Made by a program: the position numbers and the translations under genes. A DNA stretch of 64,000 nucleotides from Mesostigma viride (Eukaryota; Streptophyta; Mesostigmatophyceae; Mesostigmatales; Mesostigmataceae): positions 9,387,128 through 9,451,127 of the forward strand of contig RPFO01000065.1 in assembly GCA_009746045.1 (NCBI GenBank), given 5' to 3'. Under the pieces are notes generated by a model, which saw nothing but the letters and a program-made list of their open reading frames with translations, was not told the origin of the DNA and did no database searches. Shown here piece after piece: positions 19,568 to 60,758 of the stretch (position 1 is its first letter; every line of letters starts with the position of its first letter).

Positions 19568-19570
19568 CAT

Positions 19571-22470: not shown

Positions 22471-22513
<43 letters not shown>

Positions 22514-35690: not shown

Positions 35691-35869
35691 TCGATTCGTG
35701 TAATTAGCACCCATCCTGCGAGCATCCATGCAATTACCACCCATCCTGCGAACATTCACGTGCAATCCATGCATGCAGACACCGCCATCCATTCGATGCA
35801 AGCATTCACGTTTCCATGCAGCCACCCATCCTCGGCCCGCAGCATCATGGTGAACACAGCATTTCCCTT

Positions 35870-36676: not shown

Positions 36677-39600
36677 AGTTGCGATTCTTGTTGCGATACT
36701 GCGGGTGACCCCTGTAAGCCAAACAAGGTGAGGCCACTCCAGGTTCTGGGACCCCACCCTCCCTCAGCTAGAGTCCACGGGTGAAGGACAAGCCTGACAT
36801 TCCCAGGGATAACGGGTCATCCACAGGGATCCATGCCATGAATACTGACAGCTCTCACTGCTTGCTCAGGGCAGGAAGCTTAGTGTCATGTAGCAAGGCT
36901 AACCCTCTATACAGCCAACCCCCCATAATTAACTGGGCTGCCAGGGTCCCAGGCTCATCAGGTCATAGCAGGCTGGATGGATGCCAAGAATGCTCAATCC
37001 TAACACAGGAGCTGGCATGAGCTTCTGCTGCAGCAAGTCCAAAGCCTGCTGACACCCGTCAGTCCACGCAAACTGGAACGAGGAAACGTCCACAGCGCCC
37101 CAGGTGGAAGTGCAGTCACCAAGAGGCATGAGCAATGCCAGCAGGAAGTCGTCGCCAACAGGGTCGCCTCATGAAGAGCAAGGTTATCTCAGAAGTACGC
37201 CCATGATGAAGAGAGGCCGTGGACAGGGTTGTCTCCAGTGGGTACCCGTCAGCAGGTTGGGGAGATGCAACAAAGCACAGCCAAAATAGCCCACCGATGG
37301 CCAGCGAAACCAGGATACCACCTAGTCAGGGATCTATGAGGAGACCCAGAAAAGATGAACTGAAATCCCAAGGTGTCTCCACGCTATGATCCTCATAGAT
37401 CTCCTCCCCACCAGAACAAAATTCCCCCCCTCCAGTCGCTCCCAAAGGAGTGAGAGTGAGGTAAAGCCACATCTCCTTAGTAGCTAGTACTCTCAAACCC
37501 ATAGCCAGTGGCTTTTTATGATCCAAGGCACACTATTGCTCCATAACGGATGCCTGGGAAACCATCCACAGCCTTGATAGGGATAGCAGAAGATCAGTAA
37601 GGCCTCACCAGCCTTATGAACGGTATGCCCCAACTGGTAAAGCGTAGCACACGCTACCCCCATGCAAGGGATAGATGCAGCCCAATCCCCTGCACGCCCT
37701 GCTCCCCACACAATCCCCCTCAGCATAACTGGTAAACTGGAGACGACCAGCATGCCTACTAGTAATTCCCCCTTCTGCGTAGAATAAGCTGTAATAATCC
37801 TGGTATCAGTTCCCAAAATTGACAGCATAACCTAGCAGGAATAAACGCCATGGGATACGCATAAAGACAGAGGCCCAGCCAACCAGAGAAGGGTGGGGGA
37901 GGCCTGTCTCTCAGCCCACTGACCCACTGGTGGCCTGCAGGGTCTCTCTATAACGGCGTCCTATGCACCTCATGACTAAACATGGGATGGGCACTACAGC
38001 AAAGTGTCCAAGACGGAGTTGCATACAAGGCAGCTTGAGAGCAGACTGAAAGCAATCACCAATCAGCCAACTGATGTGCTCAAGCTTGGCAGGGCCCCCA
38101 GCAACAACATCACTCCCCGCAACCATCCAGGTGGCACTACCATGCAAGGTAATGTGGGCATTAGGATCGAAGGAGCCCAAGACAAGGTTGCACAAGTAGG
38201 GCAGCATAAGGGTATGCTGGATGAGGCCATCAGTCATCAAACAGATACACCCTCAGCTTGGCAGGGCCCTAGCAAGTAGACTGAACAATGTCCCCCTAGT
38301 CAAAGCATGGAAGGTAGTATCCATGTCCGTGAACCACGTAGACTGCCAAATGGTATTAATGTCAGTGTACCACGGATACTGATGCACATGAGGCAGGTTG
38401 TAAGGGTGGTAAAGGGCTGAATGGGTCCCTCAACAAACCCCCACCTCTAAGCTCATGTGAGCCCCCCCGCCCAGCACCCAGTAGTCCAACTCCTCAATTA
38501 AGAGTCAACGGAGTGGGCACCATTGTCATCACTGTCATGCCAAAGATTCCAGCCGGCCCCACAGTTGTAGCTCCGTTGATCCCGCCCATCATCCAACCCA
38601 CAAGGACATCCTACCCATGCAAACATGATGCCAGACCCCCCGTGCAAGCAGTCCTATTCATACAACCATCATGCTGTGCAAGCAATCAGCTCAAGGGCGG
38701 ATGGTGTACTATCAAGACAACAAGCCATCCTGGCACCATGCAAGCAAGGATAAGTCCATAGCAGGGCAAAGCAAGGGTAGGAGGTTACTCATCTGCACAT
38801 GGCTGGCTTGATGTCCACCAGCAGGCAGGACCCAACACAGCGTCAGGAGCAGGCACCAGCATTGCAGATATGCGTCACTTGGGCGTCCCCAAGTCACCAG
38901 AGTCCCAGCGGCCACCATGCAGTGCTTGATGAAGTCGCCACCATTGAGTGCTTGCAGTCACCACCAACAGCATTAGTCCACCACCAGGATACTCTCCAAC
39001 GTCGCCTCCATGCACCATGTCCGCCATCGACAAGTTACCAATCCCCCACTGGCCTCAAGCCCCCAATAGGCTACTGCCACCACGCCCAATCAGCGTTGGA
39101 CCATCCCCACATGTGGGTATCCAACACAGCTGTTGCCTGAATGGACAACCAAGACTACCTGCTTGCGCCGGTCCCGCAATGGGGAAGTGACTAAGCTGCT
39201 TTAAGGAGGCCTGGAACGGACACCAATGAGCCTGGCTCCAGAAGCTGCTTGGAAGAATGACCACATGCTGTCAACTTCCCGGACTGAATCAGCTGCAAGA
39301 AGGAGCCAGCAACCTTCACTATGGCACTCAGAAAAACTGCCTAGTAGGCCAACCTGTCAAGGGAGCATACTCTAACATGGCTACTACCAAGTGCCAGGTA
39401 GCCAGAACTCCTAAGCCTAAGGAGTGACAAGGGCCTGAGGTGGTCCAACAGCCAGCACAACTGCCCAAAAGTCAAGAGAATGGGCCTAAAAGCGCCTTGA
39501 CCAGTGTCAACAATTCTGATCTGAGAACTATATCAGATATATTCACAGATAAGAACTATGACAGCAGCCCTGGTGTCCATACTTGCTGTCCTAGTGCACC

Positions 39601-39776
39601 TCCTAGGCCCAACAGGGGCCGTCTGCCAACAAGCAGTGGTAACCATCATGTCCTCGGAGAAGTAAATGCGTGGTCACAATGGTCTGGCGCAGGTAAGGGC
39701 CCCAACTGGCAAGTGACCCACACCCCACTTGTACAGGGACGTTGTCAAGCAAGTGGTCCACCCCCTCTGGGAACAT

Positions 39777-40142
39777 GTGTCAAAGGACACCGTCTGGCAA
39801 GTGGGCAACCCATGCAAGAGACCACTGGCAACTCATGTGATACCCTTTAGGGGACAACCCACTGCAGGTATCCCGATGTCCCCTGATGTGGTGGCATCTA
39901 CCATGCCATGTGCCTCCATGATAGCATCTGGCAACCCTTTGGCAGACCTGGGATATCCATGTGTCAAAGGACACCGTCTGGCAAGTGGGCAACCCATGCA
40001 AGAGACCCCTGGCAACTCATGAGATACCCTTTAGGGGACAACCCACTGCAGGTATCCCGATGTCCCCTGATGTGGTGGCATCTACCATGCCATGTGCCTC
40101 CATGATAGCATCTGGCAACCCTTTGGCAGACCTGGGATATCC
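39777..40142. repeat. 183-bp tandem duplication
   Basis: gtgtcaaaggacaccgtctg begins at 39777 and again at 39960. The two copies differ at only two or three positions (ccactgg/cccctgg, atgtgat/atgagat). Confidence 0.9.
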
Positions 40143-41530
40143 ACTCCCCCGCAGAAATTTTCTCAGGGTAACTAGACACAGCGCTGTCCAAGTATGATAG
40201 TGGAAACCCCGTACATGCTGTTGTTCTGCCCTGGCATGTGTGATGCCGTCTGGAAATTACATTGCAGACATCCCGGATGTCCACTCCCCCGCAAAAATTT
40301 GCTCAGGGTAACCAGACGTAGCTGCCACCAATCTGGACAACTCTGGACAACTCCTAAGGAGCTCGCCCTATCCATAGTACCATGTTGATAGTGGGAACAA
40401 CTCAGATGCCGTTGTTCTCCTCCCCACCAAAACCAAACCACCATCCACGTGGGAGGAACCAAAGCTCAACCTAGAACGCCTCCACTGTCATGATGCTCAA
40501 CAAGAAAAGGAAGAGTTTCCCCCACAACTGAAACAATTGTTTGGCGACGCGTGAATTAAGAACGTGCCACAGTCCTTAAACAGCAAGGGTAGGCTGCCCA
40601 TGCACGGAAGAAAAGGATCCTGAAAGATTGTCAAGTGAGTGCAAAAGGAACCTTGCGTGAAAAAGGCAGCCATGAATTCCTACTGTCCGCTCATCCGGAG
40701 CCACCCTCAAAAGACACGAGGTGTAACCTGAGCCACACCGTAACAATGTCGTCAAAGAAAAGCAGCACCGGGAAAAAAACAACCTGAGACAGCGACGTCG
40801 TCAGGCGGTCGCGGTGGTGGTCGTGCGTGCAGCCGCAACCCGGAAGCCGGGTGATAGGTGCCGTCGGCAGCAACAGTGCGTCGGCTCAGCCATAACCCGT
40901 AGCGCCATGTCAGCCTGGCCGAAAACAGAGCCGGCAGGAAAAAAAAACAGCTCCTAGCAGGATTCTGGAGCCGGACCTGCTGAGCTACTGGACCAACACT
41001 CCGCACTGCCCTGCTCGAAACGTAGCAACACTTGCGTAATGCTAATATATAAAGATGTTTGGAGCTAGGAGGAGACTGCGGCGTCAGCAGCCACGACAGA
41101 CAGGGCGGTGGTCGGACTTCAGCACGATGCGGCCAGCCAGCCGACAGCCCGTAAGTAAGTACGCTTGTCTATGAAATATTGCACGAATCCAAATAGTTGA
41201 CGTCTGGGAGTAGATGAAAAAACCCTTTCATCACCGGTAGTCGCTGCGGAGCTGCTAAAGATGTGGTAGCATCTTCAACTCTCTTACTTGATTCCGGTGG
41301 TTGTGTCTCCGGGTTACTCATCACTCCATGGGTCGCGCATGCCGGACTGGGGAGACGTTAAAAACTTGTGAGTTCAAGGCAGCTCTCAGAGCAAGACTGT
41401 CACATAAGGATGAGTCACACTCTAAAAACTGTCCGAGCGCACAGCATTACGTACCCTCTCTGGGTCGGGCATGACTTTCATTGTTAACCGTGAACTAATA
41501 CTATCAAGATCACCAACACCTAGGTAGAAA

Positions 41531-41542
41531 CCTCCGATACCA
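41531..41542 (-). other. Primer-binding site of the 10.9-kb element
   Basis: Minus strand TGGTATCGGAGG, close to the complement of the initiator tRNA-Met 3' end, one base inside the 5' LTR. The same twelve bases serve the unrelated gag-only element at 61978-61989. Confidence 0.75.
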
Positions 41543-41543
41543 A

Positions 41544-42264
41544 TGTAACGACTAAAAATGTTGTGTTTGCAACAGCCTCAGTATCAACATTGGTGTGAAA
41601 AGATCTTTATACCTGGGTTGGAGTCGCGACAGATAACTTCACGTCCAGAGAAGCAATGAAGATGGATCTTCAACAGTTAAGGGAATGAGTCCCCACCCTT
41701 GTTAGACACAACAGACAAGTTATATCCAAGTCGACTATCTGTTGAAGTTATAGTTGACTTTTAGCAAGGGTTGTTTGATTGATGAAACAAGGAAACCCTT
41801 GAATTACACCATAGCTTTAGCTCTCACGTACGCAGACATGCACGACCTCCACCAACAGGATAAAAGTCATCGTGCATGCAGAGTCGGCTCAATCCTAACC
41901 CGAAAGGACCAATCAGATGTGAAGATCACTCAAGGTAAGATCCAGCTAAGGTTGTGGATCACTTACCTTGAGTGATCCACAACACAACACAAGGCCAGCA
42001 CTACAGAATCTCCGTGACCTGGAACCAGATCCCCCAGGTACAACAGTCTTAAAGAGAATCTATGACTGGTTGAACTAAACCATGCAAAGTACCCCACGTG
42101 GATCAGGCCACGACCAATGAGGGTAGAACAATAATTCGACAGATCTCAGCAGGCCCAATATCAATCCTACGTCGAAGCCTCCTAACTTTCCAAATAATTG
42201 TCCCCAAGAACTCATAATAAGATCAACAGTAGGAAAACTTTGGATGTAACATTTGGTTGTTACA
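41544..42264 (-). repeat. 5' LTR of the 10.9-kb element
   Basis: 721 bp. It differs from the other LTR mainly by a local inverted duplication: gatcactcaaggtaag (41924-41939) is repeated in inverted form at 41962-41977, replacing tgtcctcagaat. Confidence 0.85.
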
Positions 42265-42269
42265 GGCGC

Positions 42270-43424
42270 AGTGGCCAACCGACGGCGTGGTGCCGATGGG
42301 GGCGGGCCAAGGAGCAAGAACGTCAGGACACGGGTAAGAGAGCTCGCGTGCCCAGGATCCTATTGTTCCTACGCGTATAAATATCCTAGTGTGCCTGGGC
42401 CTTCAGCAGCAGTGGCTCCTGCCATAGGTAGTGATCATCCGTGTAACTTTGCCCGGTACTAGGCCTCATATGAGTGCTGTGGCTGTGATGAATGGCCAGA
42501 AGCCTCTCAAGCCTCCTCAGTGCATGTGGGACAGGAAGAGCTAGACAAGTGGTTGGAGGAATCAATGATATGGAGCTGGTAGCCTGCTCTGTAGATCCCA
42601 CTGTCAACCTTGTGGAGGTATTCCACACTTCCACGGCTAATAGGGATTCCAGTGAGCGTGTGAGGGACAAGACCAGGACAGCAGTCAAGGACAAGCTGAC
42701 CTGGGGTCAGTTCCTACTAAGACTACGTCAGGAGTTCTCTGATAAGGTTCTCAACCTCACCAATCACTATAAGCTGAGCTATGACACCTTTGAGATCAAG
42801 GGTACAATAGCTGAGGAGCTGCAGCGGCTCCCACGCAACAGGGAGAAGGGGGCCAAGCAGGGCTGAACATGCTAACTGACAGAGCAGTGGCAGACTACTT
42901 CCTGGATCGCATGGGGCTGAGTGTGGATGGGAGGAATGCAGCTAGGATGTTTGCTGATCAGACAGATGGGTCGTGGCCAGCCTTGCAAAAGGTTACTTTG
43001 AACATACGCCCATCTGATGCTGCTTGCAAGGCAATCCAGGTCACTGGTGCCTCTTCAGCCTCCGCTAACCAGGTCCATGGTGATGCTCAGGTGGGCATGG
43101 GGCCCAGGCAGACGATCCCAGGCCTATAGTAGGCGTCAGAGGGCTAACAGACGCAGGCAGAATGGTAACCAAGGTGGCAAGGGCCAGCAGCAGGGATCCA
43201 AAGGCAAGGGTCAGCAGCAGGCTGGGGGTCACCGAGGTGGTCAGCAGAACAAGGGTGGCCAAGGGCAAGGCAAGAGCCAGGGCCAGGGCACCCAGGCCAG
43301 TCAGAGCAGCCAGAACCAGGATGGTCAGAGGAAGGCTACTGCTGGGAAGGATGACAAGTGCTTTGGCTGTGGCAGGACAGGTCATTGGCGACGTGACTGC
43401 CCAGACTACTAGGCCAAGTCTGCT
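42270..43424 (+). pseudogene. gag of a Copia-type element (left part of the host of the Gypsy insertion)
   Basis: Three overlapping plus-strand frames (42492-42866, 42869-43129, 43017-43412) make one Gag-like protein with frameshifts: VKDKLTWGQFLLRLRQEFSD and IAEELQRLPRNREKGAKQG, then VADYFLDRMGLSVDGRNAAR. A Gln/Gly/Lys-rich region follows, and the zinc knuckle CFGCGRTGHWRRDC (CX2CX4HX4C) near 43362-43403. After the stop, the frame into the empty site reads AKSAGAGSGQVG..., and the remainder of pol lies at 53.3-55.5 kb. Confidence 0.7.
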
Positions 43425-44821
43425 TGTCGCGTCTGCGTGCCACAATCTCCGGCGCACCGATGGCGGCTGGCCACTCAGCTTTGGTAAAACCCAAATGAGC
43501 TGAGCTGACGCGCCTGCCTTAACTGCATGCCCTGTGGGGTGGGCGAGGACTTGTCCCATGATTAATGAAAAGAGGGCTCTCAGCCGAGGACAAGGAACTG
43601 TCCCTCGTGCCTGATGTCCACCTTATTGATCCCCTTGTGTACCGTCGCGTGCCGCGTTTGAATATCCTTGCTGGGGCGTTAGCTAAACGCTCCAACTACT
43701 CTAATTGCGACAATATGATGGTGCAAGAGGATGCTTTTGCCTCCCCTGCTATAGGACAATGCTTTCACAACACACACTTTGCACAGTCTGATGATGAAGC
43801 CGCACATGCGGAATTTATTCAATGAGAAAGTTAATACAATTACAACACGTTGATAGTCTCAATATCGATGCACTCCATGCTCACGAGCCCGCAGTTAGGC
43901 AGCGCTCCATGACATGCTACCGGCCTTGCTCCCAAGGAAAGGGAGAAACACGAAGGCCACTAACGAGAGACTCGAAGAGACTACACGCTGCGTGAGAGTC
44001 CTCTTCGACTATGAACCAAACCATTCGTCATGCCACACGCATGACACACGCCACACTTGTCAGTCCAGCCAGGAATGCCAAAACTATCTTGCTGCCTGAA
44101 CCATGCAAATAGAAACCGCATTCCAGTTGCCGTCCTGGCTTTCTACCACACATGCCAACAAAAGCAGGAAGGCATCCCAACAAATCTAAATTGCTACCCT
44201 GTTGCCGATCTCATCTCCTAGAGGCTCCGGCATTTCTGTCCCCGGGAATGTCCGACATTGAGTCACGTCCACCAAGGTCGAAGCATAATATCCTTCAGAC
44301 AATCTGCACGCTCACACCTTGCGTGTGAGTGGCCCAGCAACCATTGCGTCTAATCGTTCCTTTCTAGAAGAAATCCCTTTGTAGGGCTGCCAGCGATTTC
44401 GCATTCATTCCAGCGATCTGGCTCTGCACCGCAAATTGTCCTTTTCCATTTTCTGTCCAGTCCTCATAACGTTGACCCGCTATTCTATACACCACAAAGA
44501 CACCTGGCCTGTCAATAGCCTCGGCGCTGTTGAAGTCCAGCAGTCCAGCTCCAGCTCCAGCTGTCCACTAACACGCGTATGATCCTCTCGACGCTGCGCA
44601 CTTGTGCTGCCGTCCGCTCAAGTCAGTGCTGCGCGCCCAGCTGTGCCTGGCCCGGCGCGCGCGCACGTACACTTTCGTCCGCTCTTATGCTGCAAGTGCT
44701 AGTGTCCCCCCCCCGGTCACTAGCCTTTGTCGCAAATGCGTAGAAAACAAATTCCTTGCGCACGTCACCGGTCTTGTGCATAGTGGGCGCCCGGCGGATG
44801 ACATAGCTCGCGTCCGTGACA
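43425..44821 (-). repeat. Left (3') LTR of the DNMT element, full TGTC...GACA form
   Basis: 1,397 bp. The inner 1,259 bp match 52087-53337 at roughly 98 percent. The first 138 bp match 44824-44962 instead. Two bases, gc, separate its end from that extra copy, producing the palindrome gacagctgtc. Confidence 0.8.
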
Positions 44822-44823
44822 GC

Positions 44824-44962
44824 TGTCGCGTCTGCGTGCCACAATCTCCGGCGCACCGATGGCGGCTGGCCACTCAGCTTTGGTAAAACCCAAATGAGCT
44901 GAGCTGACGCGCCTGCCTTAACTGCATGCCCTGTGGGGCGGGCGAGGACTTGTCCCATGATT
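44824..44962 (-). repeat. Extra copy of the 139-bp LTR end segment
   Basis: Nearly identical to 43425-43562 (ggggcggg versus ggggtggg). On the minus strand it directly follows a purine tract GCGAGGGGGGGAA (44963-44976), which is where a polypurine tract should meet the start of a 3' LTR. Confidence 0.85.
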
Positions 44963-44988
44963 CCCCCCCTCGCTGGCGACCGGCCCCA

Positions 44989-46314
44989 TCACGAAGACAG
45001 CGATCGTACCAAGACAAGGGCAGCGGTGACCGCAGTCAAGCTGCGGGAGGTAAACTGCGCAGCGGTGCACACTGGACAAAACCAATTCCCCTCCGGAATG
45101 CTGGTGACCACTGGCTGCAAACACTGCATGTGCCAACCACAGTTACACTGATCACACAATAACATGGACTCCGCCTGATCGACCCGGTGACAAACCTGAC
45201 ACTGGGCGTCCTTGACTCGGCGAGATGTGTGCGGTTGGAGGTCGTGGACCAAATTGGGCAGCGAGCAGGGACTGAGATTGCTGAGGTTGTCTGTCGTACG
45301 GCTCCCGTCGGCGCCCTCCAAAATTGCCACTCCCGATGGTTTGATAGCCACAATGCGCAAAATGGTGGGCCCTGCCTCCACATCCAAAGTGTGCTTCAGC
45401 TGAGTGCGCAGGAAAACATACTGCCCTGGCCTAAACCGCAGCTGGCGAGCCATGTATGCGCCCCCCCGGCGCTGAGCGTAGCGCAGGGAGTCCCTGTGCT
45501 GAGCAATGAACAAGTTGTTCATCGCGATGGGCATGACCTTCTTAAAAGTCTCTGCCCTGGCCAACACCTCAACCAAAAATTGCTGAGCGTTGTCGAAGGC
45601 CATGGGTTCGGGGTGCGCAACCTGTGCCTCCGTAGGCAAAAGAGGATTACGCCCGAACAGAAGGAAATACGGGGAGAAGGTAGCGAGAGACTCTTGGGGA
45701 GACATGCGATAACCCATGGCAATCCATGCCAACTCGCGATCCCACCTGGCCGACTCCGGCACCTGCAGGCTCCACTTGCGCAGCGCCTGCTTGACGGTCT
45801 GCACCAATCTCTCAGCCAAACCATTGGCCTGAGGATGCTCCCGAGAGGTGCGACGGTGATCAATAAGACATCCATCCAGCAACTCCTGGAACTCACCCCT
45901 GAACTCACCACCCTGGTCCGTGACTACCTCCGCGGGAGCCCCAAACCTGGTTATGATGTCCGCAAAATGCTTCGCTGTGGTAGCGGCATGCTTGTCAGCA
46001 ATGGGGATCAACTCAACCCATTTGCTAAAGCTCTCCACGCATACCATGACATAGAGGTTGCCGTCAGGGCTCTCCTGAAAAGGCCCGCACAGATCGACGT
46101 GCCAGCGATAAAACAAGCCCTTGATGGGAAGCGACATCAGCTCCTTGGCACCATGATCTGCGCTAAAGTTAGCCTTGGTTCGAGCACACGGGACACAGCT
46201 GGCCACTACCTGGGCCACCGTGTGTCGCATGTTATTCCACCAATATATTCCACCAATATATTCCACCAATGGTCCGTACGAGGCTGAGCGTGCGATTGCC
46301 ACCCAAGTGACCAT
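44989..46314 (-). CDS. Integrase (C-terminal part of Pol) with a terminal PHD finger
   Basis: The frame carries the zinc-binding CVPC (partner of HX4H in the preceding frame) and the DDE core: Asp in WHVDLCGPF, Asp in VVTDQGGEF, Glu in NGLAERLVQ, about 35 residues apart at the last step. A Gypsy-type C-terminal domain follows. The last 70 residues contain CQVC-x11-CDQC-x4-H-x2-C-x14-CPVC (45067-45205), a complete C4HC3 PHD finger including the conserved Trp before the last Cys pair (GNWFC). PHD fingers bind histone H3 tails; at the end of an integrase it sits where chromoviruses carry a chromodomain, so a role in target choice is likely but inferred. The stop is at 44989-44991. The frame is separated from the upstream one by a 13-bp tandem duplication near 46238-46272. 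Confidence 0.9.
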   Translation of the reverse strand: MVTWVAIARSASYGPLVEYIGGIYWWNNMRHTVAQVVASCVPCARTKANFSADHGAKELMSLPIKGLFYRWHVDLCGPFQESPDGNLYVMVCVESFSKWVELIPIADKHAATTAKHFADIITRFGAPAEVVTDQGGEFRGEFQELLDGCLIDHRRTSREHPQANGLAERLVQTVKQALRKWSLQVPESARWDRELAWIAMGYRMSPQESLATFSPYFLLFGRNPLLPTEAQVAHPEPMAFDNAQQFLVEVLARAETFKKVMPIAMNNLFIAQHRDSLRYAQRRGGAYMARQLRFRPGQYVFLRTQLKHTLDVEAGPTILRIVAIKPSGVAILEGADGSRTTDNLSNLSPCSLPNLVHDLQPHTSRRVKDAQCQVCHRVDQAESMLLCDQCNCGWHMQCLQPVVTSIPEGNWFCPVCTAAQFTSRSLTAVTAALVLVRSLSS

Positions 46315-47290
46315 ACCGCTCGTGGTACGCCTGCACTATAGCAACGCGCTTGTCAGGCGGTGGGACGACCACCCTACGCTTGCCCAACAGCTTGTACAAA
46401 ACCCCATCTTCCCAACCATAGGTTGCAGCCCTGTGCTGCACCCTGTTCAACTCCGTTGCCTTCTGAGCAGGAGTCCAATCGACTGGAGTAGGAGTCAAGA
46501 TAGCACCCTGCACTTGCTCCAACACTCGACCATCTAGCCAGATATCAGCGGTGTAGCAATCAGCAAGAGAGCTACGCGCTAAGAGAGCCTGCACAGCGAT
46601 CAGCTGCTGCAGAGAAGGATCAATGTCAAAGGACAGAGACCTACCCTCTTCCATAGCGCACACAGCTTTGGATGGCGTGAATGGAGACGGCCGCACCGGG
46701 TCGTCGCTGGTGCCGAAGTCCGCCACAGAGTACTCGATACTGCGCCACCATGCCTCCTCCTCATCGTCGGCCGCATACCCAGCAGCGTTCACAAAGACCA
46801 CAGAACCAGACGAGCCCTCGGCACCCATGGCCCGGGCTCCAGTGTGGTCAACAGTGGTAGGCATGGCGTATCGGGATAGCACATCGGCGTTGACATGGTC
46901 CTTGCCGGCCCGATGCACAATGGTCATGTGGGACTCCTGGATAATCATGGCCCATCGGGCGAGCTTACCCGTCAGGTTGGTGTTGGTCATTAGCCACTGA
47001 AGCGGCTGGTGATCTGTCACCAGAGTAAACACGCGCCCAAATAAATACGGGCGAAAGTGCTTGATGGCCCACACCACAGCCAGTGCCTCCCCCTCAGAGG
47101 AAGAATACCGGCTCTCCGCTGGGTTGTTGCTGCGACTAGCATAAGCAATAACGTGCTCGCGCCCATCACCATCCTTTTGCGCAATGGATGTATTACCCGA
47201 TGCAGCGTGGGCTCGCCGGCCAGCACGGTGCTGGTCAGCAGGGCGGTCATGAGAAGGATAGTCCACACCTGTCGCAGACGCCACCCCCAT
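46232..47290 (-). CDS. RNase H and integrase N-terminus (Pol)
   Basis: From about 47200 the frame reads IAQKDGDGREHVIAYASRSN, then SSSEGEALAVVWAIKHFRPY (RNase H Glu), LVTDHQPLQWL (Asp) and HRAGKDHVNADVLSRYA (His and last Asp), all typical of Gypsy RNase H. The first catalytic Asp is missing because the domain is truncated at its start. Near the end HERYGH supplies the HX4H half of the integrase zinc site. The codons before about 47200 (MGVASATGVDYPSHDRPADQ) match no RT motif. Confidence 0.85.
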   Translation of the reverse strand: MGVASATGVDYPSHDRPADQHRAGRRAHAASGNTSIAQKDGDGREHVIAYASRSNNPAESRYSSSEGEALAVVWAIKHFRPYLFGRVFTLVTDHQPLQWLMTNTNLTGKLARWAMIIQESHMTIVHRAGKDHVNADVLSRYAMPTTVDHTGARAMGAEGSSGSVVFVNAAGYAADDEEEAWWRSIEYSVADFGTSDDPVRPSPFTPSKAVCAMEEGRSLSFDIDPSLQQLIAVQALLARSSLADCYTADIWLDGRVLEQVQGAILTPTPVDWTPAQKATELNRVQHRAATYGWEDGVLYKLLGKRRVVVPPPDKRVAIVQAYHERYGHLGGNRTLSLVRTIGGIYWWNILVE

Positions 47291-47369
47291 GCTGATGAAG
47301 TCCCCGGCGCTGCAGGGCGCTTCAGTTTGGCGGCGCGCGCCTCAACCTGCTGAGGCGGATTGGCTGGGG

Positions 47370-47470
47370 ACGCCCCCCCAGACTGGCGCACGGCAACCGA
47401 GGCAAGCAGCACATACCCGACCTGCAACACCGACATAGCCTGGCCTATCAAAGACCAGCGCTCACGCTCG
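47370..47470 (-). pseudogene. C-terminal tail of the methyltransferase in a shifted frame (motif X)
   Basis: After the large frame leaves register near 47470, another frame (open 47017-47673) continues with ERERWSLIGQAMSVLQVGYV. This occupies the place of motif X of C5 methyltransferases (G.a.sv..v), which completes the SAM site beside motif I. A single-base shift near 47462-47500 therefore separates motif X from the rest of the enzyme in this copy. Confidence 0.6.
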
Positions 47471-50400
47471 AGCACCGGCGCCCGGCAGCGCCGAGGCCCC
47501 GACATGAAAACCCATGCTGGCCTCACGAAATTCTGCGGGTGGCTGCACCAACAGACCGGTGGTAGTGTCCCAAACGAGACCCTTACCCCGATCACGGTAT
47601 GCTGTCGACCCTTGGTAACTGACCAGGGCCGGCAGTGCACACATGGGGCTCCCGACCCGGTTGACGCGTGCATACGGTGGGCGATCCTCGCTATCCACCT
47701 TCTGCGTGACTAGGTGGGAAGGCAATGCTACCTCCGCAGACACACTCGGATGCTGCCTTGCTACGGCCCCCAAGACCACCTGCACACCGGTCGCACACGC
47801 CACGTTGGTCCAATAGGCACGCAAACGATGCGTGAGCCCACCCAGCCCTGCGTTGTCACACACGATGGGCTCCCCCAGGAGTGCCACGATAGTAGCCCAG
47901 TCCTCCCGCACCGCCTGATGTGGGCTGTCACCCGCCACAACGTTCTCAAACAGATACGCAGGCGGATGGGGCTGACGCGACTGCAACAGTCCCACCACAC
48001 GCAACAGTTCCCAGAACAGCGCGCTACGCGGATCGGCTAGCCCCCGCCCTTGCCCTGCCTGGCTCAGGCCCTGGCACTCCCAACCCGCGATTACCAAGTC
48101 GATGGCATGATGCCTGCGCAACAACTGCTGCACCTGCACCTCACCGATGGCTCGGATATCTTGAGGACATTCCCCAAACGGGTCACGCCATGCTGATGGC
48201 GGAAACTGCGCGGGATACTCTCGCGACAACACGCCACAGTGACTGAAGTACACCTGACGCGCCTTGTGCGATGGCTCTACCGCGATGAGTTTACGGCACA
48301 CGCCGCCTGCGGCCAAAAAGCCTGCAATGCCCCCTCCGATCCCCGCAAACAGTTCCAACACTACCGCACCCTTGGCAAAATCAGGGGCCTGCGGTAAGAT
48401 TGCAGCAGAAAAATTACCTTGGGCCTCCGAGACACCCGGTTGCACCAAAGTGAGGCCATGGCTGGCCATCTGAGGAATGGTGACGACGGCTTCAGTCACC
48501 CGCTTGCGCATAGCCAGCTGCCGCGTGGACGTCACAGCATCCAGCGACCACTGCGTGCGCATCTTGGCAATGCTCGCCGTTGGCTGAGGCAGCACCGTCC
48601 GATGCTTGTCCCACGCCGATGAGCCCGCCGCCCGTACCTCCACCATGCTGACCTCCACCACGCCCGCAGCCGCTGAAGGGTTGAGGCGTGCAGCCCCGGC
48701 TGAAGAACTGAAGCATGAGACCGGCACACTGGCCCGCTTCAGGCCAGCCCCATCCCAATCAGGGATGTAAGATGCCTCCTCCGCCCTATAGTCCACCTGA
48801 ACCATGGCGCGAGCAAGGACATCCACCCCGAGTAGTGCGGAATATCCACACTTGTTGACCACCAGCGCATACGCGGACACGGTGGTCATGCTAGAGGCGC
48901 GCAACGGATTGAAAATCACGTTGACTTTAACCGCCGTCATAGCGTACGGCTTACTAGCCGGACCCTGCCAACCTGACACAGACACGGGGCTTTCCACTAA
49001 GCCACCGTTCTCGTAGGTCAGGTTCAGCATGGTGGCCAAGTCTGTGCTGATGACTAGCGGCTGAGCACCGCTATCAAGCTTGACTGCGCCAACCAACGGA
49101 CATGTCACCATGTCGCTCCATACATCTCCACAGGCTCCAACTGCTTGGAACGCTATGGACGGCTCACCATTGGGGTATGGAACCACCGTGGGAACCTGGG
49201 GAACTGCACTAGTGCGCTGCTGGCTACTTGTGCTGACCACTCCCGCTTGCACCACGGGCACTGCGGCTTCTACCGGCTGACGCCCGTAGGTGACGGACTC
49301 AGAATTGCGCAAGGTGCGCACATCATGCCCATCTGCGAACAACTGGATCTCGGACACAACCGACCCCAGCCACTCAACCCCCTTCTGCCCGAAGGTGTCG
49401 ACCACCTGCCGTGCTGAAAACATGGGTACGTCCACAATGAACGGCATTGGGTACACAGGCGCCAATCGCCTACGCTGCTCCAGCCCAGCAGGGTTCGCAT
49501 GCTCAAAAGCAGATTGCACCCCAGCCAGCGGCATGGAAAAGGACGCGGGCAACTGCCCGGCAGGCAACATGGGTGCCTGCTGAAAAGAAAGCGGGCTGCG
49601 TGCCTGCTTGCCTTTGGTAGCCTCCGCAGCGTTGATCTCGACGTCACCCGGCATGGGCGCCCAGAATGGGTCCTCCCGGTACACCGTCGCGAATTGGTTG
49701 GGGGGCGCCGTCGCCTCCTCACCATGCTTGATGGCAGCCACCTGGGCTTCCATCGAGTCGGTCTTGCCCGCCATCTCGGCGAAGTGGACCGTCTTGATGC
49801 CCGCGGCTGGACACTTGTTCATCAGGTGCCACTTCGTGTCTGCCCCATGCGGCTTCGTGCAGCGGCTTGGACACTCGCGACTAAGGTGCCCATCCTTGTC
49901 GCAAAGGTAACATTTACCGCGTGACGGGGTGGGTGCGCCCAGCGCGCCTTGCACGCCCTGCGCCTCCTGAGTCCCATCCGATGACGGCGGACGACCGCCT
50001 CCGCCTCGACCACCACCGCGACCCCGACCACCGTAGCCACTGCCGCCGCCACCACGACTGACACCGCCGCTGCCACCCTGACCGCCACCGCCGCTGCCCC
50101 CGTGACCGGCGTTGCCACCACCCTGAGTGCCGACATATTCACCGCGCCCCGCACCAGGCAGCCGCTGGCCACCCTTGACCGCGATGGCCTTCTCCATCTC
50201 AGCCATCTTCTTGCGCATCTCAGCCAGCTCAGACGAGATACCCTTCTCGCCTTCCGCACGCTTCCTGAGCAGCCGCTTGAATGCTGCACAGAGAGTCACC
50301 AAAGTCCACTCCCCACCGGGCGGCTCCGGAAGATCGATGGCCAGCAGGGGCACTGCACTCCGCCATAACCGGCAAGCCTTGGTCTGCGTATAATCAGGCA

Positions 50401-51940
50401 CTTTGCCCGCAAACGCGAGAAGCCGGTCAAGGGAGAAAGCCGGATCCTCACCCTCGGCGACGGTGAACGCTCCATTCCATTCCGCGATGGCCTTGACGTG
50501 CTCAACTGGGTACTCCAGCCGCAGTTGCTGCCACAGCTGCTCTGCCGGGTCGACATCGAAGATGATCGAGTCGAGATCCGGTGTGCCCATGTCCGTGAGC
50601 GCAAACCATATGTCCGTGCGATGACATCGGTCCACGAGCGCTCGGTAATGCTGGACCAAAACCTGGACCTTCTTCTTGGTCAGGTCATGGAAAAAAAGGT
50701 GAATAAAATCCATCACCATCTCATGGCGAAGAGGATACCCCGAGGCATAACGATAAGTGTTACAATGAGCTCGGAAGAGCTCATAGGCTTCCTCTAAAGT
50801 CGCACCCGTGCCTGCTGAGGTGAACTTCTCGCGAAGCTCCACCTTGGGCAGCGATGGCACACGAGTGGATTCGCCATGCACGCCGTACGGCATGCGGTGG
50901 GGTCGCTGGACGTCGTCGCCCTCACCCCATGGTATGCTGGCTACCTCCCGATCGACTTGGCCCCAGCCGAAGTCTGACCGAGTGCCGCCAAGCCTGGGCC
51001 GCCCTGCGGTGCCACCCAACGGCGTTGCTGCCGCCGTCATGGGTGGCCGACCTGTGCTAAACAAGCCACCTGATGCTCCCCCCCTGGGGGCTGCACCATA
51101 CCCGCCGCGCCACGATAACGTGCCTTGGTTGGGTGCCCGTAGGTTCCCCCCCAGCGTATAAGATGCGTCGGCAGTCGACCGGGTGCCTACCCGACCGACG
51201 TTCGGCTGCAGCTCGTCATCCTGCGCCATTTCCCCGTCGCCCCGCCGTTGACCGCTTGGTCCGACGCGTGGCTGACTGGGCTCAACGTTGCGTAGTGGAC
51301 CTGTCCCACTGCGCTCTTCGTCGAAGTGTCCGCGTTGGTCGCGCAGCGCCTCATGTCGCCGCGCTTCCTCGGCAGCGGCCTCCTCGTCGGCAGCCTGCCT
51401 GGCCTCGGCGTCGCGTTGGGCCGCAGCTTGGCAGGCGCGTGCAGCTTCCGTGGTTGCCTCCGCCTGCCGCCGTTGCTCAGCGCGCTCCGTAGCACGCCTC
51501 GCTTCAGCCGTAGATTCCGCGCGCTCCAAAGCAAGTCGCACAGTTTCTTCAACAAGCGTCGCCTGTTGCGATAACTGCGTCGCTTGCTGAGCTCGGAGTG
51601 CCGCCAGCTCTGCCGCTTGCTCTTGCAGCAGGCGCAGCACTTGGGTAAGAGCACCACCGTCCCCTGCCGAAGAAAGGGAAGGCGCTCCATTACCTAACAA
51701 AGCGGTGTCCGCACTAGTGCCGAGACGACCGCTGGGCGGGTCAGTTGCTTGACCGCCCGTAGCTGCCGGCGCTGACCCACCACTGCCTGATGCTGTGGGG
51801 TCAGTTCCTGACATGTTGATGGTGGTATCGACCCTGGAGAGCTCCTGCCCGTCGGTGTCGACGCCCGTGTTGGCACAGCCTGCGTGGCTTGCCAAAAACG
51901 CTGTGACCGACCTAGTGTGATATGACATAAACTGCCACAA
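47462..51940 (-). CDS. Gag-protease-DNA (cytosine-5) methyltransferase polyprotein
   Basis: 1,492 codons; the likely start is the ATG at 51814 (MSGTDPTASG), 42 codons in. Numbering from 51940: a Gln/Arg/Ala-rich coiled-coil (about 75-210); a Gag core (about 377-590, YELFRAHCNTYRYASGYPLR to LVTLCAAFKRLLRKR); an RGG/Gly-rich tract (about 597-655); a CCHC knuckle CYLCDKDGHLSREC (near 677); a retropepsin-like site LDSGAQPLVIS with Asp956. The cytosine-5 methyltransferase spans about 1190-1480: motif I LELFAGIGGG (near 1197), motif IV GWECQGLSQAG with catalytic Cys1289, motif VI FENV (near 1331), motif VIII-like LTHRLRAYWTN (near 1372), and a terminal ALPALVSYQGS...REASMGF block. The enzyme should methylate cytosine in DNA using SAM. 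Fusion between protease and RT places it inside the element's own polyprotein. Motif X lies in another frame. Confidence 0.93.
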   Translation of the reverse strand: MWQFMSYHTRSVTAFLASHAGCANTGVDTDGQELSRVDTTINMSGTDPTASGSGGSAPAATGGQATDPPSGRLGTSADTALLGNGAPSLSSAGDGGALTQVLRLLQEQAAELAALRAQQATQLSQQATLVEETVRLALERAESTAEARRATERAEQRRQAEATTEAARACQAAAQRDAEARQAADEEAAAEEARRHEALRDQRGHFDEERSGTGPLRNVEPSQPRVGPSGQRRGDGEMAQDDELQPNVGRVGTRSTADASYTLGGNLRAPNQGTLSWRGGYGAAPRGGASGGLFSTGRPPMTAAATPLGGTAGRPRLGGTRSDFGWGQVDREVASIPWGEGDDVQRPHRMPYGVHGESTRVPSLPKVELREKFTSAGTGATLEEAYELFRAHCNTYRYASGYPLRHEMVMDFIHLFFHDLTKKKVQVLVQHYRALVDRCHRTDIWFALTDMGTPDLDSIIFDVDPAEQLWQQLRLEYPVEHVKAIAEWNGAFTVAEGEDPAFSLDRLLAFAGKVPDYTQTKACRLWRSAVPLLAIDLPEPPGGEWTLVTLCAAFKRLLRKRAEGEKGISSELAEMRKKMAEMEKAIAVKGGQRLPGAGRGEYVGTQGGGNAGHGGSGGGGQGGSGGVSRGGGGSGYGGRGRGGGRGGGGRPPSSDGTQEAQGVQGALGAPTPSRGKCYLCDKDGHLSRECPSRCTKPHGADTKWHLMNKCPAAGIKTVHFAEMAGKTDSMEAQVAAIKHGEEATAPPNQFATVYREDPFWAPMPGDVEINAAEATKGKQARSPLSFQQAPMLPAGQLPASFSMPLAGVQSAFEHANPAGLEQRRRLAPVYPMPFIVDVPMFSARQVVDTFGQKGVEWLGSVVSEIQLFADGHDVRTLRNSESVTYGRQPVEAAVPVVQAGVVSTSSQQRTSAVPQVPTVVPYPNGEPSIAFQAVGACGDVWSDMVTCPLVGAVKLDSGAQPLVISTDLATMLNLTYENGGLVESPVSVSGWQGPASKPYAMTAVKVNVIFNPLRASSMTTVSAYALVVNKCGYSALLGVDVLARAMVQVDYRAEEASYIPDWDGAGLKRASVPVSCFSSSAGAARLNPSAAAGVVEVSMVEVRAAGSSAWDKHRTVLPQPTASIAKMRTQWSLDAVTSTRQLAMRKRVTEAVVTIPQMASHGLTLVQPGVSEAQGNFSAAILPQAPDFAKGAVVLELFAGIGGGIAGFLAAGGVCRKLIAVEPSHKARQVYFSHCGVLSREYPAQFPPSAWRDPFGECPQDIRAIGEVQVQQLLRRHHAIDLVIAGWECQGLSQAGQGRGLADPRSALFWELLRVVGLLQSRQPHPPAYLFENVVAGDSPHQAVREDWATIVALLGEPIVCDNAGLGGLTHRLRAYWTNVACATGVQVVLGAVARQHPSVSAEVALPSHLVTQKVDSEDRPPYARVNRVGSPMCALPALVSYQGSTAYRDRGKGLVWDTTTGLLVQPPAEFREASMGFHVGASALPGAGARA

Positions 51941-51956
51941 CCACTACCAAGTAGCA

Positions 51957-52086
51957 ACGGTCTAATCTGAAAGACTTAATGGTTGATCAGGCCACTATGT
52001 GTGCTAGTCTTCCCCAGAAAACTGCACACCGTCTCTCTTTGCTGAAATGAAAATGTTCCTTTGCAGATGGAGCTAGTCTCTTCGAG
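51957..52086 (-). other. leader of the DNMT element
   Basis: Lies between the right LTR and the Gag frame. No clear primer-binding site (TGG...) abuts the LTR edge at 52087, so either the boundary is displaced or the priming site was lost together with the 139-bp segment missing here. Confidence 0.4.
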
Positions 52087-53337
52087 TAATGAAAAGAGGG
52101 CTCTCAGCCGAGGACAAGGAACTGTCCCTCGTGCCTGATGACCACCTTCTTGATCCCCTTGTGTACCGTCGCGTGCCGCGTTTGAATATCCTTGCTGGGG
52201 CGTTAGCTAGACGCTCCAACTACTCTAATTGCGACAATATGATGGTGCAAGAGGTGCTTTTGCCTCCCCTGCTATAGAACAATGCTTTCACAACACACAC
52301 TTTGCACAGTCTGATGATGAAGCCGCACATGCGGAATTTATTGAGAAAGTTAATACAATTACAACACGTTGATAGTCTCAATATCGATGCACTCCATGCT
52401 CACGAGCCCGCAGTTAGGCAGCGCTCCATGACATGCTACCGGCCTTGCTCCCAAGGAAAGGGAGAAACACGAAGGCCACTAACGAGAGACTCGAAGAGAC
52501 TACACGCTGCGTGAGAGTCCTCTTCGACTATGAACCAAACCATTCGTCATGCCACACGCATGACACACGCCACACTTGTCAGTCCAGCCAGGAATGCCAA
52601 AACTATCTTGCTGCCTGAACCATGCAAATAGAAACCGCATTCCAGTTGCCGTCCTGGCTTTCTACCACACATGCCAACAAAAGCAGGAAGGCATCCCGAC
52701 AAATCTAAATTGCTACCCTGTTGCCGATCTCATCTCCTAGAGGCTCCGGCATTTCTGTCCCTGGGAATGTCCGCATTGAGTCACGTCCACCAAGGTCGAA
52801 GCATAATATCCTTCAGACAATCTGCACGCTCACACCTTGCGTGTGAGTGGCCCAGCAAACATTGCGTCTAATCGTTCCTTTCTAGAAGAAATCCCTTTGT
52901 AGGGCTGCCAGCGATTTCGCATTCATTCCAGCGATCTGGCTCCGCACCGCAAATTGTCCTTTTCCATTTTCTGTCCAGTCCTCATAACGTTGACCCGCTA
53001 TTCTACACCACAAAGACACCTGGCCTGTCAATAGCCTCGGCGCTGTTGAAGTCCAGCAGTCCAGCTCCAGCTCCAGCTGTCCACTAACACGCGTATGATC
53101 CTCTCGACGCTGCGCACTTGTGCTGCCGTCCGCTCAAGTCAGTGCTGCGCGCCCAGCTGTGCCTGGCCCGGCGCGCGCGCACGTACACTTTCGTCCGCTC
53201 TTATGCTGCAAGTGCTAGTGTCCCCCCCCCGGTCACTAGCCTTTGTCGCAAATGCGTAGAAAACAAATTCCTTGCGCACGTCACCGGTCTTGTGCATAGT
53301 GGGCGCCCGGCGGATGACATAGCTCGCGTCCGTGACA
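52087..53337 (-). repeat. Right (5') LTR of the DNMT element, lacking 139 bp
   Basis: Matches 43563-44821 with small indels (for example tgcaagaggatgcttttgcc versus tgcaagaggtgcttttgcc; ctatagga versus ctatagaa). Ends GTGACA at 53337, followed by TGCT. Confidence 0.85.
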
Positions 53338-54321
53338 TGCTGGAGCAGGCTCTGGCCAGGTGGGTAGCCATGATGTGTTGTCCCCTGTAAATAATCAAAC
53401 ACCCCAGGTGGGACAGACATCAGTTGTATGTACTAACGGGGGTGTCCCTCTTGTGCAGCAGCAATTAAGGGATTGGGAATGATGAGGTGCTTCCACTAAA
53501 TGATTGCAATGATGCTGCTGCAGCAGTGGAATTCACTGTACCTGTGGCAGGTGCAGGGTCTCCAGTGGCTGGGGTTGGCTCTGGGAGTCAAGCCACCAGG
53601 CTGGAAGGATCGCTCAGCTAGCTGCTACCGTGGGAACCAGGACTGGCTCTTGGAGCCAAGCATCCTTTGATGTGGTCCCCAGGTGGAGCAAGAGAACAGC
53701 AGGTGGGTCGTGCTTTCCCAAGCACACAGTCTTTGTCACGTTCCTCAGACTCTGTGCAGCCAGGCTGACAGGGGACTGAGCTATGCTCAGGCTGGAAACA
53801 CGTTACACCATATCTTTGGCCACTCTAACTAAGCAGGCAGAGCTGTTTGCTTGTCGAAGATTGGCAAGGAGCTTTTGCTTGAGGCCTGCAGTGCAGCTAG
53901 CTGCTCACAATTGTGTATGTCAGGAGAATCAGATTCGCCTCCCACAGTTCCATGCCAGAGAGCCTGCTATAGAGAGCAGGGGGATATCCAGGTGTACATC
54001 CAGCATATCAGGGCGATGTATCTGTTGGTGGGGGTGGATAGGTTTAGCAGATATAGATTGCTGACCATTCTACCTGGCATGCATGCAGGAGCATCAGCTG
54101 TTGATGGGTCTCCAGTCTTTGTTGCCTGGCTTTGGGGTGTACACCAAAGTGCAAGCTGACTTGCAGTTTGACTGCTTGCTCAAGCTGGCTGACCAGCTTC
54201 CATGTAAGCTGGTAGTGGTCCCTGGAGAGAGCCATGGACAGCAGGGAGCTAAAGAGAGATCTGTACGTGAAGTAAAAACATTGGTGCTAGCAGCTAAGAG
54301 TGTGCAGGCTGTTGTGGCATC
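53338..54321 (+). pseudogene. Copia-type pol, integrase region (continues the element at 42.3-43.4 kb)
   Basis: Joined to 43424 across the empty site, the frame continues GSGQVGSHDVLSPVNNQ... to a TGA near 53480. Between about 53930 and 54320, two alternating frames give an integrase core: QVYIQHIRAMYLLVGVDRFS, then QADLQFDCLLKLADQLPCKL, VVPGESHGQQGAKERSVREV and KTLVLAA. The VDRFSRY and ERSVREVK segments correspond to the second half of an rve domain, so catalytic residues are only partly kept. It is broken by frameshifts, and at 54322 by foldback repeats. Confidence 0.6.
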
Positions 54322-54865
54322 AGTTAGGTTAAATAGTGCCAGAACCTTTTGCCGCCTGAGGCAAATCGGGCCGGAACACTATTTTGCCCGGAAGAACCAT
54401 TTCCCAGCACCCAAGTTAATTCCGACGGCCCGATTTGCCTCAGGCGGCAAAACGTTCCGGCACTATTTAACCTAACTAAACCCTGGCCTCGTGGAGGGGG
54501 AGTCGAATAGATCTGGAGACAACCGCCTGGGCTGCTGGCACGCAAATGATTTTATATTGCGCCGGAACTTCCTCTGGCAGGTTTCAAACCCCTGACCTCC
54601 AAGGTGCACAGGTTTTAGTTAGGTTAAATAGTGCCGGAACCTTTTGCCGCCTGAGGCAAATCGCGGGCCGGAACACTATTTTGCCCGGAAGAACCACTTC
54701 CGAGCACCCAAGTTAATTCGGTCTATTCGACTCCCCTTCCACGAGGCCAGGTTTTAGTTAGGTTAAATAGTGCCGGAACCTTTTGCCGCCTCAGTGAGGC
54801 AAAATGGGCCGGAACACTACTTTGCCCGGAAGAACCACTTCCGAGCACCCAAGTTAATTCGGCCG
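54322..54865. mobile_element. Cluster of foldback-family units inserted in the Copia-type pol
   Basis: Three units beginning agttaggttaaatagtgcc start at 54322, 54617 and about 54755. The first is followed by its inverted partner, ending cactatttaacctaact at 54477. Linkers include tcaaacccctgacctccaag and cacgaggccaggtttt, as in the 29.4-kb element. The rightmost unit ends aagttaattcggccg without an inverted terminus, so the cluster may be a partial or deleted element. Confidence 0.75.
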
Positions 54866-54986
54866 AAATCATTTCCAGTGATAAACTAGCCATCCAGGAC
54901 CTGGGTGGTGTTGCTCTGAATCATTTCAAAATTCCCCTTCAATCACTTCTTCAAACCAACATTGCTTCTGTAAATTTTGCTTAATT

Positions 54987-55478
54987 TTGCTACCCCCAAG
55001 TATGCTCCAGGACAAGAACCCTGTGTGGCAGATTTGGTTCACAATCAAAAACTTCATCCCTCCTCGATCCTTTGGATTGGGCAAGCATGATGTAGAAAAA
55101 ATGTTGCCCCTTTCTTATTATGAACTGATAGAGCAAGACTGTCGCACACACATAGGTTTCCTAAAATGGGTGGAGGCCTTCAACAAGGCCATGGAAGAAT
55201 GGGTAGTGCCAGATCCACTTAGTCCATCTCACACTCCACCTGTTACCCCTATTGACAAAAAGCCTGCAGGGTGCAAGCACTTGCGCCTGAAGTTTGTGTG
55301 TAAACATAAGCCAGCAGCAGATGGGTCAGTCATTTTTCATGCCAGACCTTGTGTGACAGAGTTCAAGGGGACCACTGATCTGACAGAAGCAGAGCTGTAC
55401 ACGCCAGGCATTCAGCAAACCTCTCTAAAAATCTTGCTGTCTGTCTTTGTGGGTCACCTCAATGCAGGGGATTGTTAG
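54987..55478 (+). pseudogene. Copia-type reverse transcriptase, N-terminal part
   Basis: A 163-codon frame contains KPAGCKHLRLKFVCKHKPAA, then ARPCVTEFKGTTDLTEAELY and QQTSLKILLSVFVGHLNAGD. This is the order at the start of Copia RT (a K..V.K.K....G...K.R.V..G entry, then S.R.LL). It stops before motif A and the YVDD box, where unrelated sequence begins at about 55479. Order gag, IN, RT along the plus strand is Copia-like. Confidence 0.6.
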
Positions 55479-59738: not shown

Positions 59739-60296
59739 TGTTTAAAATACATGAATGGGTTGAATGTCATTTATTTATGAATTTATTACGAGAGACATGG
59801 CATGAGAGACGATGCTTTAGGTATGGCCCGCATCGTATTTTTATAGGCAGAAAAGAGGTACTGCCAGATGGCAAACAACCAAAGAACCATCGCCAGATTC
59901 TAGAATATTGTTTGTATGATTGCCAAATGTCAAACTGTCAAGACAACCGTTTGTATGATTGCCAGATGTCATCTGTAAAATCAACCCTGATATAATGCAT
60001 GGAATCTCATCCAGTAAAGTGACACCTGTCCATGGAATAAAGAATCACTGTCCATGTAACGTAGTGACATAGCTGCTGGCATACTAGTTGAGAACCGTAC
60101 ACTATAACAAAAAACACACACAACATAGATTAATATCTTGCTAAGTACTGATTCAAAAAAGTCAGTAAAAATATCAGCACGTAGCTAATCAAACACACTC
60201 CAAGAAATCACAAACAACACACAAAAGACCCACCTGCCCAGAATAGAAATAATTCAGGCATGTGGCCACTGGGAATAATTAATTAATTCCCAAACA
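59739..60296 (-). repeat. 3' LTR of the gag-only element
   Basis: 558 bp. It lies 84 bp upstream of exon 1 of the minus-strand gene in the same orientation, so its promoter, if active, would fire into that gene. Its plus strand has an open frame (FKIHEWVECHL...) that is present in both LTRs and is probably incidental. Confidence 0.9.
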
Positions 60297-60704
60297 CCCC
60301 CCTTGGCAACTGCCTAAAGAGGGAAACACTCTAGTAGTGCTAGTACTATGTCCCAGTTTATATTCACCTATCAAACTAGTAACCATTTCCTAGCGGTCAT
60401 TGCACTCAGGGCTAAGGACCTTTACAACTAGGACTAGGGCAGGTGATTGCTACGGGCCACCCCCCTCAAACACATGCCCCGTAGTGAGCGGGCAATAGGC
60501 TTTAAGGCAGAAGCATACCGGTACAAGGTGGTTTTTGGCTGACCACGAACCAAAAAGACTAGTCACGACGGGACTAGTGCACTACGTAGACTACCTACGC
60601 CGAGGTGGCCACGACGGGGCCACTATATGCAGCGGGTCACGACGGGACAACGCTGAAAAGTGTGCTTTTTGACATAGGGCTTAGCAACAAAACCCGAAGA
60701 GATG
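60297..60704 (-). other. 3' untranslated part of the gag-only element
   Basis: Between the Gag stop region and the polypurine tract. Contains short gactagtcacgacggg-type repeats at 60555-60650. No pol domain is present. Confidence 0.5.
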
Positions 60705-60758
60705 CTTTTTTACGGTTCAGCAATAACCGACGAAAAAATGGAAAACCGGCTGAAAAAT

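Follow-up and report, generated by a model that had tools for sequence, protein, structure and literature searches.

The window analysed here, a stretch of 64,000 nucleotides from contig RPFO01000065.1 (positions 9,387,128 to 9,451,127 of the forward strand), contains an element that is probably a damaged Ty3/gypsy-type retrotransposon, in which the protease is followed by a DNMT3-like methyltransferase and the integrase by a PHD finger. The element spans 43425-53337 with its coding strand on the minus strand, wider than the 47370..51940 over which an earlier note on this DNA had described a long terminal repeat (LTR) retrotransposon with its own cytosine-5 (C5) DNA methyltransferase. A methyltransferase carried by a retrotransposon is a rare combination that has already been described. 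Observed for the element are its domain order, a fused frame, a DNMT3-type fold match, repeats in the order A-coding-B-A-B, a 13-nucleotide site complementary to the 5' repeat A1, AGCA flanks, and three lesions. The fused frame and the methyltransferase comprise the following features.

47462..51943, minus strand: stop-to-stop frame of 1,493 codons with gag-like part, zinc knuckle, protease and methyltransferase (open reading frame listing and Pfam)
49865..49918, minus strand: CCHC zinc knuckle (PF00098, 2e-4, residues 676-693)
48809..49081, minus strand: aspartic protease, LDSGA ... ALLGVD (Pfam matches below cut-off, E 0.06-0.075; motifs read in the translation)
47462..48388, minus strand: open-frame part of the C5 methyltransferase, motifs I, IV, VI and VIII and the MGF block (PF00145 4.6e-11; alignment; DNMT3 fold match)
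48074..48079, minus strand: Glu-Cys where Pro-Cys is expected, catalytic Cys of motif IV (among relatives, P in 56/56 and C in 56/56; codons read)
47392..47475, minus strand: C-terminal methyltransferase block resembling motif X, encoded in a different frame (open reading frame 47017-47709), the motif X label being our own reading

That a retrotransposon here has its own C5 methyltransferase, in frame with gag and protease, is borne out by this single frame and by its match to the C5 methyltransferase family (residues 1195-1335, scoring 43.2 bits where the cut-off is 22). The further claim that the frame fuses gag, zinc knuckle and protease stands in full for the knuckle; the protease is recognized by its motifs, with a weak profile score (E 0.06) and yet legible LDSGA and ALLGVD, and the gag part is named by position and by the knuckle because the gag families gave no match in the Pfam scan of the frame. 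The placement of the enzyme between protease and reverse transcriptase (RT) holds on the protease side, whereas no RT domain is found in this copy; such a position may apply to intact copies.

Beyond PF00145, the enzyme matches the phrog_116 DNA methyltransferase family (4.1e-18) and the TIGR00675 dcm profile (4.9e-12), the latter scoring 46.1 bits and so falling short of the curated cut-off of 100.65. In an alignment of the methyltransferase query with 56 relatives from viral contigs (56 of 67 selected), the query keeps F25, G27, C116, Q117, E159-N160-V161, R199, R201, Y203, W204 and N206. All of the motifs previously reported (I, IV with its catalytic Cys, VI, VIII and MGF) are present, with two qualifications: in the PCQ of motif IV the Cys and Gln are kept while Pro is replaced by Glu, ENV of motif VI and RxR of motif VIII being intact, and the MGF block does not align with the C-terminus of the relatives. 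Because the motifs run in the order I, IV, VI, VIII and then MGF, the enzyme is not rearranged, and a DRM-type enzyme was rejected. A tblastn search matched 246 phage records, the lowest E among the 15 listed (1e-10) belonging to an enzyme from a Pelagibacter phage, at 37.7% over residues 96-200. Scans of viral contigs with the methyltransferase query and with the integrase-frame query returned no relatives, and neither did a scan of prokaryotic genome contigs.

By its best fold match the methyltransferase appears DNMT3-like. The alignment-based fold model has a mean predicted local distance difference test score (pLDDT) of 61.8, with residues 11-60 and 101-210 mostly good and residues 64-82 and nearly all from 213 poor. 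When this model was used for a fold search, all 50 of the PDB matches listed (109 in all, E <= 0.001) were structures or complexes of DNMT3A, DNMT3B or DNMT3C, the best of them DNMT3A at 5.1e-10 with 25% identity over 195 columns. A DNMT3-type fold and the unrearranged motif order are thus found together, at moderate model confidence. A single-sequence fold model (pLDDT 33) was left unused. The single-sequence PDB search gave 46 matches, including 4onj (a tobacco DRM; 5.1e-5), HhaI (2.5e-4) and DRM2 (1.1e-3); searching the PDB with only the second half of the enzyme gave three matches of other protein kinds, the best with E 0.095. Relative to the catalytic domain of animal DNMT3A/B/C, with which it shares its best fold matches and motif order, the enzyme differs in the Glu before the catalytic Cys and in its fusion into a gag-protease frame, and no PWWP or ADD was found by Pfam.

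Downstream in the coding direction, the remaining protein-coding features are the following.

46934..47185, minus strand: RNase H, N-terminus missing (PF17917 1.4e-29, profile from position 21; Ty3 best in PDB, 6.2e-11)
46171..46363, minus strand: integrase zinc-binding (H2C2) domain, in two frames (PF17921 in both)
46233..46270, no strand: 13-bp unit repeated 2.9 times, breaking the integrase frame (repeat search)
45832..46110, minus strand: integrase core, rve (PF00665 5.8e-12; in PDB, PFV 4.1e-15 and Ty3 1.8e-12)
45067..45201, minus strand: PHD finger, behind the integrase in the same frame (PF00628 1.8e-9; in PDB, BAZ2B 7.4e-14 and Lid 8.7e-13)

An rve integrase together with an RNase H, each with Ty3 among its closest solved relatives, and the position of RNase H before integrase, which is the Ty3/gypsy order, place the element with that group. 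Of the expected succession of protease, RT, RNase H and integrase, all but RT are found in sequence in this copy. The RT families gave no Pfam match in the ten element frames scanned, seven of which gave nothing at all above cut-off. Only about 320 nucleotides separate the MGF block from RNase H, too short for an RT, and the RNase H match begins at profile position 21, so the loss extends into RNase H. Chromoviruses carry a chromodomain, and by analogy the PHD finger probably occupies its place.

The three lesions are thus the RT domain that is not found, the break of the methyltransferase frame before motif X, and the broken integrase finger. With damage to methyltransferase, RT region and integrase alike, the copy is defective; activity of this copy was rejected on the same three lesions, and methylation by it is therefore hardly possible.

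A different kind of information is provided by the ends of the element, which depart from those of a plain LTR element. Self-comparison gives the repeat order, in coding orientation, as A1-coding-B1-GC-A2-B2, which is not an ordinary LTR pair.

53338..53341, no strand: TGCT flank (reading AGCA on the coding strand), right-hand copy of a 4-bp target-site duplication (sequence read)
52490..52502, minus strand: presumed transcript start and self-primer (13-nucleotide perfect complement, closing helix of the folded leader; start inferred)
52087..53337, minus strand: repeat A1, 1,251 bp, at the 5' end (first bases TGTCACGG, last bases TTTCATTA)
52074..52086, minus strand: presumed self-priming primer binding site, directly adjoining A1 (13-nucleotide complement to A1)
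44963..44969, minus strand: G7 tract adjoining B1, presumed polypurine tract (sequence read)
44824..44962, minus strand: repeat B1, 139 bp (99.3% to B2)
44822..44823, no strand: GC spacer between B1 and A2, in the palindrome GACA-GC-TGTC (sequence read)
43563..44821, minus strand: repeat A2, 1,259 bp (BLAST self-comparison and boundaries read)
43425..43563, minus strand: repeat B2, 3' end of the element (one base common with A2)
43421..43424, no strand: TGCT flank, left-hand copy of the same duplication (sequence read)

A1 and A2 are 98.6% identical (BLAST, 1,267 columns), differing by 8 substitutions and four short indels. In coding orientation the element begins with TGTCACGG and ends with CGCGACA, with AGCA on either side. 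The A2|B2 joint reads CATTA|ATCATGGG, with one base in common, and the internal joint ACA-GC-TGT forms the palindrome GACAGCTGTC, which occurs once in the window. DIRS/PAT elements have a tyrosine recombinase and lack a target-site duplication; membership in that group was rejected on the rve (DDE) integrase and on the AGCA duplicated at both ends. An age of the insertion in years was likewise rejected, as no rate is known, and a search inside the window for an empty insertion site found none.

The site adjoining A1 suggests how an intact element of this kind could prime reverse transcription. Among 1,434 sampled 40-mers, none reaches a complement of 13 nucleotides within the first three offsets (maximum 10) and one does so anywhere, and in the full scan a complement of 11 or more occurs at 111 of 122,156 positions. 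When the leader is folded from 52502, the 13-nucleotide helix closes both the minimum-energy and the centroid structures. In A2, TGTAA and AATAAA lie 139 and 164 bases past the presumed start point, as expected for an R region. For self-priming of the Tf1 type, then, the complementarity is present and the transcript start is a presumed position. The Tf1/Sushi elements are chromoviruses with a chromodomain. Self-priming has been reported for Tf1/Sushi and for Tcn1 (PMC6317226). Like these, the present element has a primer site that adjoins the 5' repeat and is complementary to what would be the 5' end of its own transcript; they differ from it in having plain LTRs, where the present element has split repeats along with its methyltransferase and PHD finger.

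For comparison, the window offers two further LTR elements as controls, each with an ordinary LTR pair, TG...CA ends and a 5-bp duplication. In both, TGGTATCGGAGG, presumably an initiator-tRNA-like primer site, adjoins an LTR; these are its only two places in the window, and the window-wide search found none in the methyltransferase element. The control at 31347-42264 is about 10.9 kb long, with LTRs 96% identical, the duplication GGCGC and what we take to be a tRNA-like primer site, and its region is strongly CpG-depleted (0.42-0.58). The control at 59739-62547 is short, with LTRs 99.8% identical and the duplication CAATT, and contains a gag-like frame with a zinc knuckle that has no Pfam match.

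Among published elements the closest counterpart is KnitGypsy-Dnmt3 of the charophyte Klebsormidium nitens, described in the main text and legend of PMC5890265 as having gypsy domains, a DNMT3-related enzyme in Pol and DIRS-like repeats. Compared by description only, the two share gypsy domains, a DNMT3-like enzyme in the polyprotein and the A-coding-B-A-B layout of the published legend, and they differ in that the present copy has no RT, has Glu-Cys at motif IV, and has a PHD finger, which the main text of PMC5890265 does not mention. The element thus fits the KnitGypsy-Dnmt3 description except for RT. SymbioDIRS-Dnmt3 of Symbiodinium likewise has a DNMT3-like enzyme in its polyprotein and the A-coding-B-A-B order, with a tyrosine recombinase and a DIRS-type RT where the present element has a DDE (rve) integrase and a 4-bp flank duplication (PMC5890265, same parts). 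The earlier note's statement that retrotransposon methyltransferases are a known but rare class is upheld by the same text. Further, some DNMT3 members sit in streptophyte and dinoflagellate retrotransposons (PMC12344493, in the part available), DNMT3 was not found in the green algae of MMETSP (PMC9998398, likewise in part), and the accessible portion of PMC11244446 has nothing further on such elements. Searches of the open literature, judged by title and the start of the abstract, gave no report of KnitGypsy-type elements besides PMC5890265.

These likenesses raise the possibility, serious though somewhat the less likely, that the element is a copy of the KnitGypsy-Dnmt3 family itself and that only detail is new. 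The K. nitens genome is fairly gene-dense, and the few host genes recognized in this window count against such an identity. Repeat order, gypsy domains and a DNMT3-like enzyme common to both speak for it, while the PHD finger, with 0 mentions in the paper's main text, speaks against it (PMC5890265).

Several observations also weigh against the reading of the element as a Ty3/gypsy-type carrier of a DNMT3-like enzyme, or against parts of it. In the enzyme, Glu precedes the catalytic Cys where all 56 aligned relatives have Pro, the single-sequence search does not have DNMT3A among its 46 PDB matches, and the fold model was built on viral alignment rows that may themselves favor a DNMT3 result. 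The layout and the replication inference rest on a single copy; the folding energy of the leader is modestly unusual (z -2.1, with 2 of 100 shuffles as good); and the G7 tract beside B1 is one of seven G-runs of at least 7 on the element's coding strand, on which a search for purine runs of 12 or more found none. CpG in the element (0.856 versus 0.795 in the rest of the window) is not depleted. As other stretches are CpG-depleted (0.416 at 36001-40000 of the window), CpG decay seems to occur in this genome, and CpG content gives no support to heavy past self-methylation of this copy. Finally, no methylation was obtained in yeast with the enzyme of KnitGypsy, a result its authors call "inconclusive" in the text of PMC5890265.

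That yeast result, the Pro-to-Glu replacement and the loss of frame ahead of motif X speak for another possibility, in which the methyltransferase does no enzymatic work (being dead or RNA-binding) and is retained as a passenger through the Gag-Pol fusion. Against it, the enzyme keeps its catalytic Cys together with ENV and RxR, and published relatives are under purifying selection (Ka/Ks < 0.2; PMC5890265, main text). A passenger seems unlikely.

Less probable still is an accidental origin of the split repeats, in which an ordinary A-B LTR pair (TG...CA) lost B at the 5' side and, through unequal exchange, gained a second B next to the 3' LTR. With a single copy at hand, and with A2-B2 by itself reading TG...CA like an ordinary LTR, such an origin can be imagined, but the 13-nucleotide self-complement adjoins A1 exactly at the place of the missing B, the G7 tract adjoins B1, GC between perfect terminal motifs parts B1 from A2, and KnitGypsy-Dnmt3 was published with the identical order (legend of PMC5890265). 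Least credible, and very improbable, is a chimeric assembly or a pair of nested elements: the frame break and the missing RT do both fall between methyltransferase and RNase H, but gag, protease and methyltransferase share one frame, and near-identical repeats in the same orientation with matching 4-bp flanks bracket both sides, for which nested stretches would need common ends. That the methyltransferase-gag frame belongs to one element with the RNase H-integrase part is supported by the single frame of 1,493 codons and by the agreement of repeats and flanks at either side.

For the retrotransposon read in this way, as a single Ty3/gypsy-type element, a replication scheme can be proposed. Transcription of an intact copy would begin in A1 and finish in A2, and the transcript's own 5' end would prime reverse transcription at the site adjoining A1, as in Tf1. 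The plus strand would start at the G7 tract, giving a complementary DNA (cDNA) whose ends are LTRs of the form B-GC-A. These ends would then be joined into a circle, creating the A2|B2 joint, and the integrase would cut at the ACA-GC-TGT joint, leaving split repeats and a 4-bp duplication. B-GC-A LTRs joined end to end would yield the observed A2|B2 joint with its one shared base, and circularization with a cut at one B-GC-A joint is suggested because the integrated ends ACA and TGT face each other across GC internally. Taken jointly and from one copy, these four steps are tentative and on balance doubtful.

A general formulation, marginally more doubtful again, would be that of a retrotransposon with a DDE integrase in which primer site and polypurine tract delimit an LTR that is a circular permutation with respect to the integrated ends. 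Such an element would self-prime, form an LTR-LTR circle and have it cut by integrase at ACA-GC-TGT. The outcome in that formulation would be a DIRS-like architecture without a tyrosine recombinase, in an element that has both a DNMT3-like enzyme to write methylation and a PHD finger to read histones. Transposases of the IS3/IS30 type use circle junctions and offer an analogy for the proposed cut.

How the two additional domains might be used can be framed by analogy. The methyltransferase, packaged within Gag-Pol, might methylate the cDNA before or at insertion and so protect it or set a chromatin state, a suggestion that falls a little short of an even chance. Equally short of it is the suggestion that the PHD finger would steer integration via histone H3. 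Action of the enzyme on cDNA, in the particle or at insertion, was proposed by the 2018 authors, in whose yeast experiments SymbioDIRS enzymes gave CG methylation (PMC5890265, main text).

The surroundings of the element in the window are varied. An older retroelement, represented by 42492-43409 on the left and 53342-55475 on the right, seems to be its landing site; translations show a gag-like frame with a zinc knuckle on the left and integrase-like and RT-like fragments on the right, with no Pfam match. A LINE-like element (LINE, long interspersed nuclear element) lies on the minus strand at 94-3745 (RVT_1 6e-13 and 4e-8), part of it repeated at 26195-27819. At 14407-19569 a 1.72-kb unit occurs in three tandem copies, 99.8% identical, either a recent triplication or an assembly feature. 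A short palindromic repeat family occupies 29435-30100 and 54316-54867, with 29542-29901 a perfect self-inverted match (360 bp). The only host-like gene recognized is a 585-codon open frame at 22027-23781 with a GT29 sialyltransferase domain (4.4e-46); the Pfam scan of ten other window frames gave this gene and two LINE RTs, and tRNA and Rfam scans of the window gave no matches.

A retroelement equipped with a DNA methyltransferase reverses the usual view, in which methylation is done by the host and silences the element. Should the host here be neither Klebsormidium nor a dinoflagellate, captures of this kind would be known from a wider range. Gypsy elements with the A-coding-B-A-B order have been described simply as having DIRS-like repeats (main text and legend of PMC5890265); the end structure of the present element offers a concrete and testable scheme for how they may replicate.

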